A stretch of DNA of 64,000 bases from Sphingorhabdus sp. Alg231-15 (lineage in GTDB: Bacteria > Pseudomonadota > Alphaproteobacteria > Sphingomonadales > Sphingomonadaceae): the NCBI RefSeq assembly GCF_900149705.1, contig NZ_LT703001.1, positions 2,108,001-2,172,000 of the forward strand, read 5' to 3'. Position 1 is the first letter of the stretch, and the number at the start of each line of letters is the position of its first letter. Below the pieces are notes generated by a model that searched no databases, had not been told where the DNA came from, and worked only from the letters and a program-made list of their open reading frames with translations. Shown in pieces: positions 19,034 through 29,460 of this stretch. Both the position numbers and the translations under genes were made by a program.

Positions 19034-20398
19034 CTAGTTTTTGGCGGTTGCCGGTTTTGCCGATTTCTTGGCCGCAGCTTTATTCATCGCTACTTTCAGG
19101 CCTTCGGGGCCCAAACGCCCAATTGTCTGCAGGGCATAGTGCAGTTGGAAATCCTCAATGCCCTTTTCTTTCAGGCCTTCCGCCGTTTCCGTAAAACGCG
19201 GATCATCCTTGGCATCTTCTTCCAGAACATCATCTTCCAGCTTCACTTCGTTGATGAGATGCTTGCGCAGATCTGATTCGCGGAACCGTGGACGGGTCTT
19301 GTAATCAGGATCAGAGAGCTGCGGTACCATGATGTCAGGCTCGATACCGCCTTCCTGAACTGATTTCCCGGACGGGGTGTAGTAGCGCGCCGTGGTCAGG
19401 CGTAAGGCCGAGGTGTTGGATAGCGGCAGCAATGTCTGCACCGATCCTTTGCCAAAGCTACGCTCACCCATCACCAGTCCACGATGATGGTCCTGCAAGG
19501 CACCCGCAACAATTTCGGAGGCCGAAGCGGACCCTGCGTCGATGAGGACAATCACGGGAAGGCCCTTGGCGGCATCACCACTTTTCGCAAAATAGCGTTC
19601 AATGTCGGACTTGCCGCGGCCGCGTTGTGACACAATCTCTCCGCGAGAGAGGAATACATCCGACACGTTCACCGCCTCATCCAGCAGACCGCCGGGATTG
19701 GAGCGCATATCAAGAACATAGCCCAGCGGCTTTTTTCCAAGCGCCTTGTCAATACCAACAATGGCCGCCGCAACATCTGCACCGGTGTCATTTGAGAAGC
19801 TGGTGATGCTGATCACGCCGACCTTGTCTTTCACTTCCCAGTTTACCGGCTTGAGATCAATAACAGCACGATTCATTGACACATCAAAAGGTTTGTCGCG
19901 GCCAGGGCGGACGATGGTCAGCTTAATCGGCGAACCCGGCTTACCGCGCATTTCCTCGACGGCTTCATCGAGCGAGCCGCCATAAATCAGCGAACCATCG
20001 ATATGGGTAATATAGTCACCGGCCTTGACGCCCGCCTTGTCTGCCGGGGTGTCCTTAAACGGTGCAATCACCTTCACAGCGCCATCTTCCATGGTCACCG
20101 ACAGACCCAGACCGCCATAATTGCCATCGGTTTGGGTCCGCAGATTTTCAAAATCACGAGCGTCCAAAAAGCTGCTGTGGGGATCAAGACTGCCCAGCAT
20201 CCCGTTAATCGCACCCTTGATCAAATCCGCATCATCGACTTGGTCGACATAGTCCGTACGCACGCGGTCAAACACGCTCATAAACTGTTCCATCTCGCGA
20301 TAAGTATTCGCATCAACAGCAGAAATAGCAGAGGTGGTTGCGGGCAAAAGCGCCACGGTCAAAACAAGGGCTGTTGCCTGTAAAACGGGCTTTTTCAT
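19034..20398 (-). CDS. ctpA: Carboxy-terminal processing protease (S41 family)
   Basis: The start at ATG 20398 gives a signal peptide or N-terminal anchor (MKKPVLQATALVLTVALLPA); the frame extends 35 codons upstream with no such signal. The 454-residue protein has the usual N-terminal helix (YREMEQFMSVFDRV), a PDZ domain (about 90-165, GGLGLSV), and the S41 core. By the standard 25-residue spacing the Ser/Lys dyad is Ser292 (GSASASEI) and Lys317 (GERSFGKGSVQ). It acts in the periplasm, often on envelope and cell-wall enzymes. It lies directly downstream of a LytM factor gene, an arrangement common in alphaproteobacteria. Confidence 0.95.
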   Translation of the reverse strand: MKKPVLQATALVLTVALLPATTSAISAVDANTYREMEQFMSVFDRVRTDYVDQVDDADLIKGAINGMLGSLDPHSSFLDARDFENLRTQTDGNYGGLGLSVTMEDGAVKVIAPFKDTPADKAGVKAGDYITHIDGSLIYGGSLDEAVEEMRGKPGSPIKLTIVRPGRDKPFDVSMNRAVIDLKPVNWEVKDKVGVISITSFSNDTGADVAAAIVGIDKALGKKPLGYVLDMRSNPGGLLDEAVNVSDVFLSRGEIVSQRGRGKSDIERYFAKSGDAAKGLPVIVLIDAGSASASEIVAGALQDHHRGLVMGERSFGKGSVQTLLPLSNTSALRLTTARYYTPSGKSVQEGGIEPDIMVPQLSDPDYKTRPRFRESDLRKHLINEVKLEDDVLEEDAKDDPRFTETAEGLKEKGIEDFQLHYALQTIGRLGPEGLKVAMNKAAAKKSAKPATAKN

Positions 20399-20476
20399 CG
20401 AAAAATGTCCTGTAAGTCTAAATATGCCATAAATATAGGCCTGAATCGGGTTTAAAGCCAAGCACCTTAACCAAAT

Positions 20477-20503
20477 ATGACGTTGATTATCGACGAACGT
20501 CAT
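20477..20503 (-). promoter_or_regulatory. 8-bp perfect inverted repeat between the LytM-factor gene and ctpA
   Basis: ATGACGTT and AACGTCAT are perfectly complementary across an 11-base loop. Read on the plus strand the repeat runs into TTTT, but the genes on both sides are on the minus strand. It may be an operator for ctpA, a processing hairpin in the transcript, or a terminator for antisense transcription. Confidence 0.4.
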
Positions 20504-20530: not shown

Positions 20531-21727
20531 TCAACCCACCAAGGCGGCAATGTCAATCGGCCGGCCATTGCGTCGCAATTCGACGGTTACATTGGGGTCA
20601 TCGGCACCCGAACGACCGACAGGCGCGCCCTGCACCACCCTATCGCCAACCTCTGCGGTTGTTGTTGCCAAATTGGTGATCAGGCTGGTCCAAGCGGCAT
20701 CATGCTCGATAATCAGGATATTGCCATAGCCACGATAGCGCCCGGCAAAAGCGATCCGGCCAGCGGCCGGAGCGACAATCTGCGCATCCGGTTCCACAGC
20801 AATGGTCAATCCGCGTGAGCGATAGCCGCTATCGGATATCTCACCCAATCCGGTGACAATGTCCCCGATGACCGGCAGACGGTAAGCATTGGCAACATTG
20901 CTTTTACGGCTGGGATTGCGAGCAGGTCCGTCTCCATTTTGACTGGGACGCAATAGCGGACCATCCAAGATGGATAGAGATTCACGCACCGCGCCGCTTT
21001 CTCGTATCTGATCCATCAGGTCGAGTATATCTCTCGCCTCCTCGCCCAAGGCCAACGCGCGGTCCTGCTCCAGACCGGCATCATCTGAAAACTGCTGCGC
21101 CTCGACACGTTCATTGGCTTCCAGGCCCGCTAGCCGTTTGCGCCGTTGGTCCAATTGTTTCTGGCTTTCATTGAGGGAGGCGATTGCCCGGGCGGATTGG
21201 GCCCGCAGTTTTTCGCCCTGTTCGACTTCGCTACGCAAGCTTGCTGTACGCTGTTCGATTTCAGGAACCACCGTTGCCATGATCGAGCGAATGTAGATAA
21301 GCTCATCCAGTGACCGCGGTTCAACCAGCGCCAACGCCGTCGGCTTGCGCGTCATCATCTGCAAGGCGGCAGTTAAACGCACCACTGGTCCTTGTTTCTC
21401 CGCCAACCGAGCACGCTGACGCTCTTGCAATCGTCCGACAATTGCGATGCGCGACCGCGCAGCCCGGATATCGGCCTCGGCGGCTTGAATGCGGGCAGCC
21501 AAAGACGCGGCCTCGCTCCCGATCCGGTCTGCTTCATTGGTCGCCGCCTCGGCCTGACGGCGCAAAGCATCGCTGCGTTGCCGCGCTTTGTCGGATTGCT
21601 CGCGTGCAGAGACCAGGGCGCGCTGTTCTTCTGCCAGGGAAAGTCCCGGGGTTTGCGCGGGCAGCGCCACCGCAAAAAAAGCACCCAGAATGGCCAAGCC
21701 AGTGAGAAGGAAAAGCTCGCGTGCCAT
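20531..21727 (-). CDS. EnvC-like LytM-domain factor, probably catalytically inactive
   Basis: 398 residues: a signal peptide (about 1-24), two long coiled-coil segments (about 30-100 and 160-215) and a C-terminal LytM/M23 fold. The zinc site is missing: where active enzymes have HxGxD this protein has SRGLTIAVE, and where they have HLHFEVR it has NVTVELRRNG. Fold landmarks such as GYGNILIIEHD and GAPVGRSG remain. This matches EnvC/NlpD activators, which open amidase autoinhibition during septal splitting. It is followed by ctpA and preceded by rlmH. Confidence 0.9.
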   Translation of the reverse strand: MARELFLLTGLAILGAFFAVALPAQTPGLSLAEEQRALVSAREQSDKARQRSDALRRQAEAATNEADRIGSEAASLAARIQAAEADIRAARSRIAIVGRLQERQRARLAEKQGPVVRLTAALQMMTRKPTALALVEPRSLDELIYIRSIMATVVPEIEQRTASLRSEVEQGEKLRAQSARAIASLNESQKQLDQRRKRLAGLEANERVEAQQFSDDAGLEQDRALALGEEARDILDLMDQIRESGAVRESLSILDGPLLRPSQNGDGPARNPSRKSNVANAYRLPVIGDIVTGLGEISDSGYRSRGLTIAVEPDAQIVAPAAGRIAFAGRYRGYGNILIIEHDAAWTSLITNLATTTAEVGDRVVQGAPVGRSGADDPNVTVELRRNGRPIDIAALVG

Positions 21728-23237: not shown

Positions 23238-23677
23238 GATAATGTGGGCCAGGACTTCCAAGTGCCTGCGGCGTAGAAAAGACCATAGATCAGGACAATC
23301 AGTGAACTCCAGATCGCGAAACCATTGATCTTTTCAGGAGCAAATATCGCCATTGGTAACACTATCAGCCCGCGCGCCAAATAGACTGCGCTTATGGCGA
23401 CCAGGCCGGTCCGCAGCAGCGGCGGTTTCCAGACCAGCCCTGCTCCAGCGAAGGCAAACCAACTCCAGATCGCCAAAACGCACGCGATCCCGATCGTTAT
23501 GAGCGCAGGATAAAATAGGCCCTTTTCAGCCATTCTCGCCATGTCTTCGCCGGCTCCGAAAAAACGATACCAGTCGGGTCCGCCAATGATGACGCCAATA
23601 TGCAGGATGCTAGCAAGCAGGCTCAATATCCCGCCGACAACGAGCAGTTTTTGACCGAGATCCACCGTCGCCAACAT
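23234..23677 (-). CDS. Four-helix membrane protein of unknown function
   Basis: 147 residues, starting at ATG 23677, which overlaps the stop of proA by one base (TAATG). Four membrane helices are evident: about residues 10-32, 52-76, 84-106 and 114-134. The loop after helix 1 contains GGPDWYRFFGAGEDMARMAEKG, a pattern also found in uncharacterised small DoxX-like or DUF-type membrane proteins; I do not assign a family. It is coupled to nadD downstream by ATGA. Confidence 0.75.
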   Translation of the reverse strand: MLATVDLGQKLLVVGGILSLLASILHIGVIIGGPDWYRFFGAGEDMARMAEKGLFYPALITIGIACVLAIWSWFAFAGAGLVWKPPLLRTGLVAISAVYLARGLIVLPMAIFAPEKINGFAIWSSLIVLIYGLFYAAGTWKSWPTLS

Positions 23678-24930
23678 TAAGGCCGGATCTGCCCGGTTCC
23701 GCGCACGACCCATTTATAGGTGGTCAATCCCTCCAGCGCGACGGGACCGCGTGCATGCAGACGGCCAGTGGAAATTCCGATTTCCGCGCCAAGACCAAAT
23801 TCGCCGCCGTCAGCAAACTGGCTGGAGGCATTCCACATCACAATTGCGCTGTCGGTGCGCTGGATAAACTGATTGGCAACAGCTTCGTCCTCAGTCACCA
23901 CAACATCCGTATGATGGGATCCATGTTCGGCAATATGGGCAAGCGCCTCATCCACTCCACCGACCATCCGAACCGATACAATAGGGGCAAGATATTCGGT
24001 GTCCCAATCTTCGGATTCGGCTGAAACCGTTCTGGGATCAAGCTCCATGATCGCATCATCGCCGCGCACTTCACAACCGGCATCGATCAGGGCCCGGAGC
24101 ATAGGCCCTGGGGCAGGATAGTCCTGATCAATCAGTAGCGTTTCCATTGCCCCGCATACGCCAGTGCGCCGCATCTTCGCATTGACCGCGATTGCAATGG
24201 CTTTGTCCTGATTTGCCGCCTTGCCGATAAAGGTGTGACAAATACCATCAAGATGCGCGAGGACCGGAACCCGAGCCTCTTCCTGTACTCTTGCGACAAG
24301 CGACTTGCCTCCACGTGGAATGATGATGTCGATCAGGCCAGAGGCTTTCAGCATTGCCCCGACGGCCGCACGATCGGTCGTCTGAACCAGCTGGATCGCA
24401 TCTTCCGGCAGTCCTGCAGAAGCGACTCCGGCAATCATTGCCTCATGAATAGCGCGATTGCTTTCAATCGCCTCTGATCCACCGCGCAAGATGACGGCAT
24501 TGCCCGATCGTAATCCCAAGGCCGCGGCATCTGCCGTCACATTGGGCCGGCTTTCATAAATGATACCAATGACGCCAAGCGGTACCCGTACTCGCTCCAT
24601 GATCAAGCCGTTAGGCCGCTCATTCTGGTCAATTATCGCACCGACCGGGTCCGGCAGGGCCGCGACTTGCTCCACCGCAGACGCAATGACGTCAAGCCTC
24701 TGTGCATCAATCATCAACCGGTCGAGCATGGCGTCGCTGAGCTCATTAGAGCGGCCTCGGTCCATATCTTTGGCGTTGGCAGTGAGAATCGCAGACTGGC
24801 GGTGGCGCAGTTCTGCCGCCGCCGCCATCAAAGCCTTTGCTTTGTGTTCGCTAGTGACGCCAGACAAGGCTGCAAAAGCAGTACGCGCACGTCGGCCCAT
24901 ATCGGACATGATTTGCTGATGATCAGTCAT
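23677..24930 (-). CDS. proA: Glutamate-5-semialdehyde dehydrogenase
   Basis: 417 residues, family-typical. It reduces gamma-glutamyl phosphate to the semialdehyde in proline synthesis. VPLGVIGIIYESRPNVTADAAAL and LRGGSEAIESNRAI are ProA landmarks. The catalytic Cys lies in MRRTGVCGAMETLLID. SSQFADGGEFGLGAEIGISTGRLHARGPV closes the active site. It is the first gene of a minus-strand run through nadD and rsfS and is divergent from the M23 peptidase gene. No proB is visible in the window. Confidence 0.97.
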   Translation of the reverse strand: MTDHQQIMSDMGRRARTAFAALSGVTSEHKAKALMAAAAELRHRQSAILTANAKDMDRGRSNELSDAMLDRLMIDAQRLDVIASAVEQVAALPDPVGAIIDQNERPNGLIMERVRVPLGVIGIIYESRPNVTADAAALGLRSGNAVILRGGSEAIESNRAIHEAMIAGVASAGLPEDAIQLVQTTDRAAVGAMLKASGLIDIIIPRGGKSLVARVQEEARVPVLAHLDGICHTFIGKAANQDKAIAIAVNAKMRRTGVCGAMETLLIDQDYPAPGPMLRALIDAGCEVRGDDAIMELDPRTVSAESEDWDTEYLAPIVSVRMVGGVDEALAHIAEHGSHHTDVVVTEDEAVANQFIQRTDSAIVMWNASSQFADGGEFGLGAEIGISTGRLHARGPVALEGLTTYKWVVRGTGQIRP

Positions 24931-25028: not shown

Positions 25029-25126
25029 GAATCGAAAAAACCCGCTACCGTCGGTTAATTTTACATTAATTTTGCAGCTCACCGCATACCTCTTTCGACT
25101 CGTCACGAGTCGCATCCACACGATTC
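25029..25126. promoter_or_regulatory. Cluster of four GANTC sites, candidate CcrM/GcrA-controlled promoter region
   Basis: GANTC occurs at 25029-25033 (GAATC), 25097-25101 (GACTC), 25107-25111 (GAGTC) and 25122-25126 (GATTC), four in 98 bases where about 0.4 would be expected by chance. The middle two are arms of a perfect palindrome CGACTCG-TCA-CGAGTCG (25096-25112). GANTC is the CcrM methylation site of alphaproteobacteria, and GcrA reads it at cell-cycle promoters. The region lies between divergent proA and the LytM peptidase-bactofilin pair. Regulatory use is inference. Confidence 0.5.
25055..25069 (+). promoter_or_regulatory. CtrA-type box
   Basis: TTAA-TTTTACA-TTAA has exactly the TTAA-N7-TTAA form bound by the cell-cycle regulator CtrA in alphaproteobacteria. 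It lies 116 bases upstream of the M23 peptidase start and is surrounded by GANTC sites. Binding is inferred from the motif only. Confidence 0.5.
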
Positions 25127-25184
25127 GCGCCGTTAACAACCCTCTGCTAGCGCGGCTTCGGGGATTAGTAAGAGTATACGGGTC

Positions 25185-26378
25185 ATGCACAATCACAAAA
25201 CCAAGGAAGGGCTTTTCGCCCGATTGGATCATATGTTCACAGATCGCGAATTTTTCATGCGCGCTAACGGACAGGTTCGGTTCCTTACCATTTCAGGACA
25301 ATTGCAGAAACGCGTCGCTATTACCGTTGCCGGAATTATCAGCCTTTGGTTGATTGTCACTCTTGCGATGACGGTCAATCAACTGACTGTAACCAGCGAA
25401 CGAATGGCATTGGCGGAGAAAGAAGCGGCTGTGAACAGCAGCCAGAGCCGAGTTGCAGCGTATAAAGAATCGATTGACGGGGTAGCGAGTGATCTCAGCC
25501 AGCGTCAGGACATACTCGATAACATGTTCAAGGAGCATTTTGGCGGCAATGCACCGATAGCAACGGATGCTGCTGATACTGACAAGCAACTTTCCGAGAA
25601 TACGGACAAGATCAGTGCCGCATTTCCGGAAGCTGCGTTTCTGGCAAAGGTGGAAGCTCGGCAGATCGCATTTGCCCGGAAACTGACCCGCGCGGCGATG
25701 AAGCGCACGGCCGATGCCGAAGCCGCGATTCGCAAATTCGGGCTCAACCCCGAAACCCTCTCTAAAACATCCGGTGCGGCAGTCGGTGGTCCGCTTATCC
25801 CGTTTTTCGACGATGACGAGAAAGAACTCCACCCCACCCTGGAACGTTTAAACAACGCTTTGGTGCGGATGGATCAACTAGAGCGTACGTTGCTCACCAT
25901 ACCATCAGCCATGCCGGCAGATATCACCATGATGTCAAGTGGTTATGGCTATCGCCGCGATCCATTCACCGGCGGCGGCGCGATGCATAGCGGCATTGAT
26001 TTCAAAGGACCGCATGGTCAGCCGATTTTATCCGCAGCCAGCGGCAAAATTACCCATGCAGGTTGGAAGTCGGGCTATGGCAAAACAGTGGAAATTACCC
26101 ATGGCAATGGCCTGATGACACGCTATGCACATCTTTCCAAAATTCATGTGGCCACTGGTCAAAAAGTGAAACAAGGATTACAAGTGGGGGCAATGGGCAG
26201 CACCGGACGTTCAACTGGCACACATCTTCATTTCGAAGTGCGGCTGAATGGCCAAGCGGTAAACCCAAGACCATTTCTGGAGGCGAATACAGATGTTCTC
26301 AAAGTCCAAGCCGTCGCAAGACAGCGAACAAACGCACCAAAGAAGCGTGCCAAAAAGTCAGGCTCCAGCCGTGGCTAG
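25185..26378 (+). CDS. M23 (LytM) peptidoglycan endopeptidase, membrane-anchored
   Basis: 397 residues. A short cytoplasmic N-terminus precedes one membrane helix (about 44-66), then a coiled-coil periplasmic stalk (70-240) and a LytM domain with a full zinc site: His268 and Asp272 (MHSGIDF), His349 in THLHFEVR, plus His316 in RYAHLS. It should cut peptide cross-links in murein. The gene overlaps the bactofilin gene by 86 bases; the overlapping part encodes only a basic tail. Pairing of a LytM peptidase with a bactofilin is known from several phyla, where the scaffold localises the hydrolase to shape the cell. Confidence 0.93.
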   Translation: MHNHKTKEGLFARLDHMFTDREFFMRANGQVRFLTISGQLQKRVAITVAGIISLWLIVTLAMTVNQLTVTSERMALAEKEAAVNSSQSRVAAYKESIDGVASDLSQRQDILDNMFKEHFGGNAPIATDAADTDKQLSENTDKISAAFPEAAFLAKVEARQIAFARKLTRAAMKRTADAEAAIRKFGLNPETLSKTSGAAVGGPLIPFFDDDEKELHPTLERLNNALVRMDQLERTLLTIPSAMPADITMMSSGYGYRRDPFTGGGAMHSGIDFKGPHGQPILSAASGKITHAGWKSGYGKTVEITHGNGLMTRYAHLSKIHVATGQKVKQGLQVGAMGSTGRSTGTHLHFEVRLNGQAVNPRPFLEANTDVLKVQAVARQRTNAPKKRAKKSGSSRG

Positions 26379-26793
26379 AAGCAGTGCAAGTAACGGATCC
26401 AGCTTCTCCATTATCGGAGACGGCATTGTCATTACCGGCAATATCGAGGCGAAAGTCGACCTGCATATTGATGGCGAAGTGATCGGCGACATCAGATGCC
26501 TGTCTCTCGTTCAGGGCCCATCGAGCAAAATCCAGGGTGCCATTGTTGCACAAAATGCCAGCCTGTCGGGCGCTGTGGAAGGCTCGATTGAAGCCGGCGA
26601 TCTTGTGATCAGCTCCAGCGCGCGAATCGGTGGCGACGTGTCTTATGAAAATGTCACAATTGAACAGGGCGGTCATGTTGACGGCAAGTTCAAGCATAAG
26701 AGCGCCAAGTCTCCAAACCTGGCCAAGACAACCGTCGATATGGCGAAAAAATCGCCGCCACTGGAACTGACCTCGGACGACAAGGCCGCTTAA
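26293..26793 (+). CDS. Bactofilin (polymer-forming cytoskeletal protein)
   Basis: 166 residues. The start at 26293 is well supported by GGAGG nine bases upstream, although it lies 86 bases inside the M23 gene. A disordered Ser/Gln/Lys-rich N-terminus is followed by the bactofilin beta-helix (about residues 38-135): SIIGDGIVITGNIEAKVDLHIDG, then repeated turns such as GDIRCLSL, SLSGAVEGSIEAGDLVI, GDVSYENVTIEQGGHVDG. The tail is Lys-rich. Bactofilins self-assemble on the inner membrane without nucleotides and recruit murein enzymes, here presumably the overlapping LytM protein. Confidence 0.94.
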   Translation: MFSKSKPSQDSEQTHQRSVPKSQAPAVARSSASNGSSFSIIGDGIVITGNIEAKVDLHIDGEVIGDIRCLSLVQGPSSKIQGAIVAQNASLSGAVEGSIEAGDLVISSSARIGGDVSYENVTIEQGGHVDGKFKHKSAKSPNLAKTTVDMAKKSPPLELTSDDKAA

Positions 26794-29298: not shown

Positions 29299-29460
29299 CC
29301 ACATATCCAAGACAAAATGCGGGTGCAGCGATTCTGCTCCGTCTTCCATTCATGCTATATGCATAAATTAGAACGATAATCGACGAGCAGCGTGATTTCT
29401 TCGACAGCGCGGCTTGCGAGCAGTGTTATGATGCATCACATAAGACGCATGAAAGTGGAT

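Follow-up and report, generated by a model that had tools for sequence, protein, structure and literature searches.

How the local cutting of the cell wall is timed with the chromosome cycle in bacteria is, to our knowledge, largely an open matter, and a locus of Sphingorhabdus sp. Alg231-15 raises the question of whether the copying of DNA could itself contribute to this timing. The locus lies in a stretch of 64,000 nucleotides of contig NZ_LT703001.1 (positions 2,108,001 to 2,172,000, forward strand; hereafter the window), where a membrane-anchored M23 peptidase gene overlapping a bactofilin gene is preceded by four GANTC sites and a CtrA-type box. An initial annotation had proposed a cell-cycle-timed murein-remodelling module. 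We consider it likely that the locus is a sphingomonad lmdC-bacA operon with a sigma70-type GANTC promoter that would be opened by GcrA and linked to replication, with CtrA as a second input in part of the genus. Of the proposed module, the GcrA/CcrM wiring is upheld at the level of sequence, by the regulator genes and the conserved array, and the CtrA part is confined to a clade. The elements concerned are listed in window coordinates; the box, the GANTC sites, both reading frames and their overlap had been placed correctly from the start.

25029-25033, unstranded: distal GANTC site GAATC (YGAKTCK on the minus strand), the least kept of the four
25053-25069, minus strand: CtrA-type box TTAA-N7-TTAACC, minus-strand reading TTAATGTAAAATTAACC; plus-strand TTAATTTTACATTAA at 25055-25069
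25097-25101, unstranded: GACTC, first GANTC of the proximal array (site 1), retained by 28 of the 30 genus loci
25107-25111, unstranded: GANTC site 2 of the proximal array, GAGTC, with site 1 10 bases earlier
25122-25126, unstranded: GANTC site 3, GATTC, at the -35 position of the putative promoter, from GANTC-N18-TGNTA conservation
25145-25150, plus strand: putative -10 element TGCTAG, in the near-invariant alignment block CTCTGCTA
near 25157, plus strand: predicted transcription start
25185-26378, plus strand: lmdC-like M23 peptidase gene (Pfam PF01551)
26293-26793, plus strand: bacA-like bactofilin gene, N-terminus MFSKSKPS (Pfam PF04519), overlapping lmdC by 86 bases
23677-24930, minus strand: proA, glutamate-5-semialdehyde dehydrogenase, the divergent neighbour (NCBIfam NF001221, 573 bits, cut-off 289)

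The GATTC at 25122 lies exactly 18 bases ahead of the TGCTA -10 box, a string that was considered on the strength of what we take to be the Caulobacter -10 consensus; the string itself was not found in PMC4287350. Conservation of this element was assessed in a genus set of 30 loci, all of the same genus and including the window's own, drawn from 60 genomes searched; two genus genomes of 80-82% completeness (G002 and G008) gave no near-full-length match and lie outside the 30. A wider search returned 80 loci, and the promoter counts exclude L002-L014 (same genus, mostly repeats of the genus set), L054 (upstream DNA too short) and L055-L081 (M23 genes, for the most part from other bacteria); L015 and L110 come from one genome, and L015 was removed from the order counts. 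A bactofilin or proA is called absent here when tblastn at E 1e-3 gives no match to the protein of the window within the locus. GANTC-N18-TGNTA is present in all 30 genus loci and in 24 of the 29 order loci that carry the gene pair (not in L019, L031, L034, L041 and L042), and other spacings (10-17 and 19-26) occur in 0-3 of these order loci and in none of the genus loci. At least three GANTC per 200 bp were found in 24 of the 29 loci with the pair, compared with one (L044) of nine M23 loci in which no bactofilin was found. A further 20 loci of the family, order and class (13 genomes from the 60-genome set and seven regions chosen for N-terminal coverage) carried a bactofilin in 17 cases. The spaced element was not found in the 16 of these from other families (L197-L212, 15 with a bactofilin; 0-3 GANTC per 260 bp), for which a script set the start codons, with a doubtful one at L199. 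Two loci of the same family, L213 and L214, have a bactofilin, seven and six GANTC respectively, and the spaced element, and two others of the family, L196 and L215, have no detected bactofilin and two GANTC each in 260 bp. The promoter thus appears to be an invention of this family that tracks the gene pair.

With 132 GANTC against an expected 285, the window is depleted of the site, whose density in a 444-kb sample is 1.98 per kb. All four sites first reported within 98 bases (25029, 25097, 25107 and 25122) are present, and by this depletion and by their rarity they go beyond chance: four GANTC within 98 bases occur at five places in the 444 kb, the lmdC upstream region included, and that region is the one place in the sample with the exact N5/N10 spacing of the three proximal sites. 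Among 1497 upstream regions of 200 bp, which represent about 45% of the genome under crude open reading frame calls, nine hold at least four GANTC, and two of these nine are the lmdC and proA sides of one intergenic region. The ranking is headed by ctrA and ccrM with five sites each, followed by seven regions with four, lmdC among them. All four lmdC sites take the form YGAKTCK, and when this form is counted lmdC ranks first with four, the next region having three.

The three proximal sites stand at the same spacing in all genus loci except L096 and L102, which are without site 1. On the 30-genome tree, the 12 core positions of these sites changed twice and their three N positions changed 10 times, with a mean of 3.99 changes per column in the surrounding columns; the binomial probability of two or fewer core changes is 4.5e-6 if changes fell evenly on the 15 columns. 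By Fitch counts, site 1 had two core changes and three N changes, site 2 had no core change and six N changes, and the distal site at 25029 is less kept (G2 A1 N6 T2 C3). The mean number of GANTC per 200 bp is 4.83 in the genus loci and 4.62 in the order loci, and the highest value of the other 15 palindromic classes across both sets is 2.40 (AA.TT, genus). Because the core positions changed twice and the N positions 10 times, the alignments indicate that selection acts on GANTC as such at the three proximal sites. Conservation upstream of the orthologous pair, which the initial annotation had put forward as a check, was thus found for the array, which is kept and goes with lmdC-bacA. A separate block, TCAYCGC, lies upstream of the array at window 25079-25085 and is shared by 23 of the 30 genus loci and by 11 of the 29 order loci.

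The regulators that such sites call for are encoded in the genome. The ctrA gene was identified by the NCBIfam equivalog model NF045991 (422 bits, cut-off 350), gcrA by PF07750 (88 bits), and a CcrM homologue carries the RAMA domain PF18755. A genome devoid of ctrA and ccrM had been named as a finding that would speak against a cell-cycle module; both genes are present, the CcrM homologue with a score (618 bits) below its NCBIfam cut-off. Directly observed are the parts of this arrangement, the extent to which they are conserved and the regulator genes themselves, and GcrA/CcrM control of lmdC-bacA is well supported by sequence.

The gene pair itself agrees with the membrane-anchored M23 peptidase and overlapping bactofilin that had been annotated. 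The peptidase has an M23 domain (PF01551, 125 bits) and one N-terminal membrane helix, with a hydropathy peak at residues 44-62. Residues H268, D272, H316, H347 and H349, which we take to have zinc-binding or catalytic roles, are 100% kept in an alignment of 75 homologues (L036, whose match crosses a stop, was excluded). An AlphaFold model contains helices at 38-119, 127-146 and 148-184, a long periplasmic coiled coil, the M23 domain, and a cytoplasmic beta-hairpin of strands 21-27 and 30-36, with a mean predicted local distance difference test of 75.4 and a predicted template modelling score of 0.53, so that the global arrangement is uncertain; R26, G29 and Q41 are 99-100% kept in the 75 homologues. 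The bactofilin domain was recognized by PF04519 (75 bits), and the protein matches 2n3d, Bactofilin A, over residues 1-134 (E 1.5e-10). Its N-terminus is MFSKSKPS, and MFS[KR] was present in 60 of 60 N-termini read. No second bactofilin was found in the genome, and a phage-family scan of the bactofilin gave no match. The two genes overlap by 74-95 bases in 29 of 30 genus loci and by 29-77 bases in all but one of the 29 wider loci with the pair, that one being L052 with an apparently broken frame. In one genus locus (L111, genome G022), the lmdC frame is apparently broken near its end, and bacA is still matched.

Published work on such operons, cited here and below from partial texts, describes in Hyphomonas neptunium an lmdC that overlaps bacA by 17 bases and encodes a bitopic M23 peptidase. 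This enzyme binds BacA through its N-terminal cytoplasmic region, and its recruitment depends on a conserved cytoplasmic beta-hairpin; Rhodospirillum rubrum has a similar lmdC-bacA operon, and bactofilin and M23 genes are adjacent in 226 species (PMC10945521). The locus described here is like those of H. neptunium and R. rubrum in gene order and overlap, and likewise in its membrane-anchored coiled-coil M23 peptidase, cytoplasmic beta-hairpin and tagged bactofilin, but its overlap is 86 bases rather than the 17 of H. neptunium (PMC10945521). The bactofilin membrane-targeting sequence MFSKQAKS (PMC12448750) matches the MFSK tag found here. On the grounds of its overlap, domains and catalytic residues, of the cytoplasmic beta-hairpin seen in the model and of the membrane tag MFSK, the pair is identified from its sequence as the sphingomonad version of the LmdC-BacA murein-hydrolase/bactofilin operon, with endopeptidase activity and BacA binding predicted. 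The initial annotation had added that bactofilins localise murein hydrolases in other phyla; the cooperation holds, but it is not restricted to other phyla, having been demonstrated in alphaproteobacteria (PMC10945521). Promoter control of lmdC-bacA by GANTC or CtrA is not discussed in the available part of that paper (PMC10945521).

Taken together, these features suggest the following sequence of events. At a sigma70-type promoter with the CcrM site GATTC in the -35 position, 18 bases ahead of TGCTA, and with more GANTC upstream, GcrA on methylated GANTC would act together with sigma70 to open the lmdC-bacA promoter. Methylation would be full before and hemi after passage of the replication fork, which would tie expression to replication, and the CtrA box would add a second input in part of the genus. 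BacA would then bind the membrane via its MFSK tag, polymerise, and recruit LmdC through the cytoplasmic beta-hairpin of the latter, and LmdC, as a membrane-anchored M23 endopeptidase, would cut peptidoglycan crosslinks locally and so set cell shape; these protein steps are taken over from published Hyphomonas, Rhodospirillum and Caulobacter work. GcrA binding, methylation, the direction of the effect and the timing at the lmdC promoter are what we infer by analogy. The genome is 3.6 Mb, and its sampled guanine-cytosine (GC) skew flips sign around 2.25-2.3 Mb, a distance of some 0.12-0.16 Mb from lmdC. The dnaA gene is at 1.87 Mb, and the position of the origin is only indicated by the sampled skew. 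Because the locus would be this close to the likely origin, the methylation change would be expected early in replication. These data suggest that, through a methylation-site promoter at fixed spacing, chromosome copying helps time cell-wall remodelling in sphingomonads. A bolder form of this proposal, in which DNA methylation in sphingomonads directly gates bactofilin-guided wall remodelling, GANTC has replaced the -35 element, and passage of the fork near the origin switches the operon, an arrangement that would have arisen in this lineage and that the gene pair does not have in the other alphaproteobacterial families sampled, is possible, and we hold it only tentatively.

The alternative that survives best is that the array is the operator of another regulator, a dimeric factor bound to the inverted repeat CGACTCG-TCA-CGAGTCG, with GANTC incidental. 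The 7-base repeat at 25096-25112 is perfect, and the spacer GTCAC between sites 1 and 2 is conserved (Fitch changes 3, 1, 0, 0, 0); however, the N changes in sites 1 and 2 break the repeat and keep GANTC, the best-kept site, at -35 and in 30 of 30 loci, lies outside the repeat, and the N5/N10 array is present in just nine of 29 order loci, compared with the 24 that have at least three GANTC. We regard this operator as unlikely. A slightly weaker case can be made for an ordinary housekeeping sigma70 promoter in which GATTCG is simply the -35 sequence of the lineage and methylation is irrelevant. A fixed 18-base spacing is what sigma70 requires, and GATTCG is the commonest -35 hexamer (27 of 30 genus loci and 21 of 24 order loci). 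This reading is rather improbable, because the additional GANTC sites further upstream show the same selection, GANTC is depleted window-wide, and only ctrA and ccrM outrank the region for GANTC.

The third alternative, that the operon is mainly CtrA-controlled with TTAA-N7-TTAACC as its key element, has in its favor the resemblance of the lmdC box to the one 111 bases ahead of ctrA, TTAATCTAAAATTAACC, with 16 of 17 bases identical. Of the 30 genus loci, 14 retain the lmdC box; two of these 14 fall outside the main clade, and the box shows two changes on the tree. L203 and L209, of another family, have a box of their own at -142. Nevertheless, the other 16 genus loci lack the lmdC box, as does every one of the 29 wider loci with the pair, and the GANTC promoter is present in most of these 29. 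The box also precedes the -35 site by about 52 bases and the predicted start by about 90-100, and it is oriented towards proA. Moreover, exact TTAA-N7-TTAA occurs at 22 places in the genome, and the shuffled window predicts 0.39 per 64 kb, or about 22 per genome; the box is where it had been reported, but its occurrence is not above chance. Control mainly by CtrA is thus very unlikely. A CtrA input in part of the genus only is plausible from the sequence, and the role of CtrA at the lmdC promoter is judged to be weaker than that of GcrA/CcrM because the box is clade-limited, far upstream and pointing at proA. Conservation of the box across related genomes, likewise suggested as a check, was borne out for 14 genus loci but not for the wider set. 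The box was dropped as a stand-alone argument, since its genome-wide count equals chance. The weakest alternative, that the motifs serve divergent proA, with which lmdC has a common 254-base intergenic region and towards which the CtrA box reads TTAACC, is highly improbable, because 19 of the 29 order loci do not have proA as the adjacent divergent neighbour and 15 of these 19 keep the lmdC-facing GANTC promoter; the element therefore goes with lmdC.

Among the 16 genomes without the lmdC box, 13 are also without the exact ctrA box (first half TTAG) and three have it (G010, G018 and G022); in G007, the lmdC box is present and the exact ctrA box is absent. The region upstream of ctrA in the 30 genus genomes (L166-L195, L184 being cut short) keeps a GANTC array, mostly of 4-6 sites, and in many of these genomes the full CtrA box is replaced by TTAG-N7-TTAACC. 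The lmdC and ctrA upstream regions of the genus are therefore alike in having a conserved GANTC array and a CtrA box (TTAA- or TTAG-N7-TTAACC), but the spacing is different at ctrA, where the array precedes the box and the box is directed at ctrA. Control of ctrA by GcrA has been predicted in Sphingomonadales (PMC7987155). A TTAA-N7-TTAACC box also stands 45 bases ahead of a 540-residue M23 gene (L137 1501-1515, G000:C1:1905346).

GcrA/CcrM control of lmdC-bacA can be compared with what has been reported for other alphaproteobacteria. GcrA is a sigma-binding activator of promoters methylated to N6-methyladenine (PMC7403470), and YGAKTCK is its proposed preferred form in Caulobacter (PMC7987155). 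Caulobacter genes with GANTC conserved in seven related species are five times commoner than random among those most downregulated without ccrM (PMC3973325). The lmdC promoter has in common with Caulobacter GcrA/CcrM promoters such as ctrA P1 a GANTC near the core promoter, a CtrA motif nearby, the presence of the regulators, and the YGAKTCK form, here at all four sites (PMC4287350, PMC7987155). The GANTC of Caulobacter ctrA P1 is at -28/-29, whereas that of lmdC is at -35, a position also occupied in P2 of the Caulobacter CCNA_00877-00875 operon (PMC4287350). Unlike the Caulobacter promoters, the target here is a bactofilin-hydrolase operon, and the GANTC array and the -35/-10 spacing are kept across a family. 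Among the titles and abstract openings listed in searches of open-licence papers, none described GcrA/CcrM or CtrA as controlling the transcription of a bactofilin operon, and bactofilin, bacA, lmdC and M23 are absent from the available main text of a Hyphomonas CtrA paper, whose supplementary regulon tables may list them (PMC7200025). A methylation site kept family-wide at a fixed distance from the -10 element offers a clean target for studying the action of GcrA and methylation on sigma70 promoters, and the conserved gene pair offers a view of wiring to different clocks in different lineages.

Several points weigh against GcrA/CcrM control. The GANTC upstream of lmdC is at about -35 to -31, but in the Caulobacter promoters that become active at 40-60 min the site falls between -10 and -35 (PMC4287350). 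In Brevundimonas, two of 29 promoter-GANTC genes with ccrM-responsive Caulobacter orthologues responded, so that a site alone is no proof of regulation, and the available text reports no extended-motif preference for that genus (PMC7987155). The conserved GTCAC spacer, together with the TCAYCGC block, points to a possible role for a further DNA-binding protein. With the GcrA Pfam model, a match was also obtained in the unrelated control genome of Sulfolobus acidocaldarius, and the CcrM homologue covers 348 of 350 positions of NF050803 without reaching the cut-off of 830 bits. The 29 order loci are not 29 independent cases, many being Sphingobium, and their start codons were set by script. In 1.64 Mb, GANTC-N18-TGNTA forms no clear promoter class, with four upstream-oriented matches at N18 compared with 0-4 at other spacings, a count that lacks the lmdC match itself, presumably masked by the crude gene caller. 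The literature search turned up no sphingomonad methylome, chromatin immunoprecipitation or expression data.

As a general promoter class of the genome, GANTC-N18-TGNTA was set aside as unsupported in the 1.64 Mb. A further intergenic GATTC-N18-TGCTA lies at window 29330-29357, 35 bases ahead of a called open reading frame. Directly ahead of the lmdC start codon is GGGTC (window 25180-25184), which is not a standard ribosome-binding site; it occurs within 14 bases of the lmdC start in 29 of 30 genus loci, GGGYC occurs within 20 bases in 21 of 29 order loci, and GGGTC lies within 20 bases of the start in eight of the 1497 sampled genes. Elsewhere in the window, a second M23 gene (20531-21727, minus strand) is EnvC-like in NCBIfam, below cut-off, and adjoins a C-terminal processing peptidase gene (19034-20503, minus strand; TIGR00225, 333 bits).

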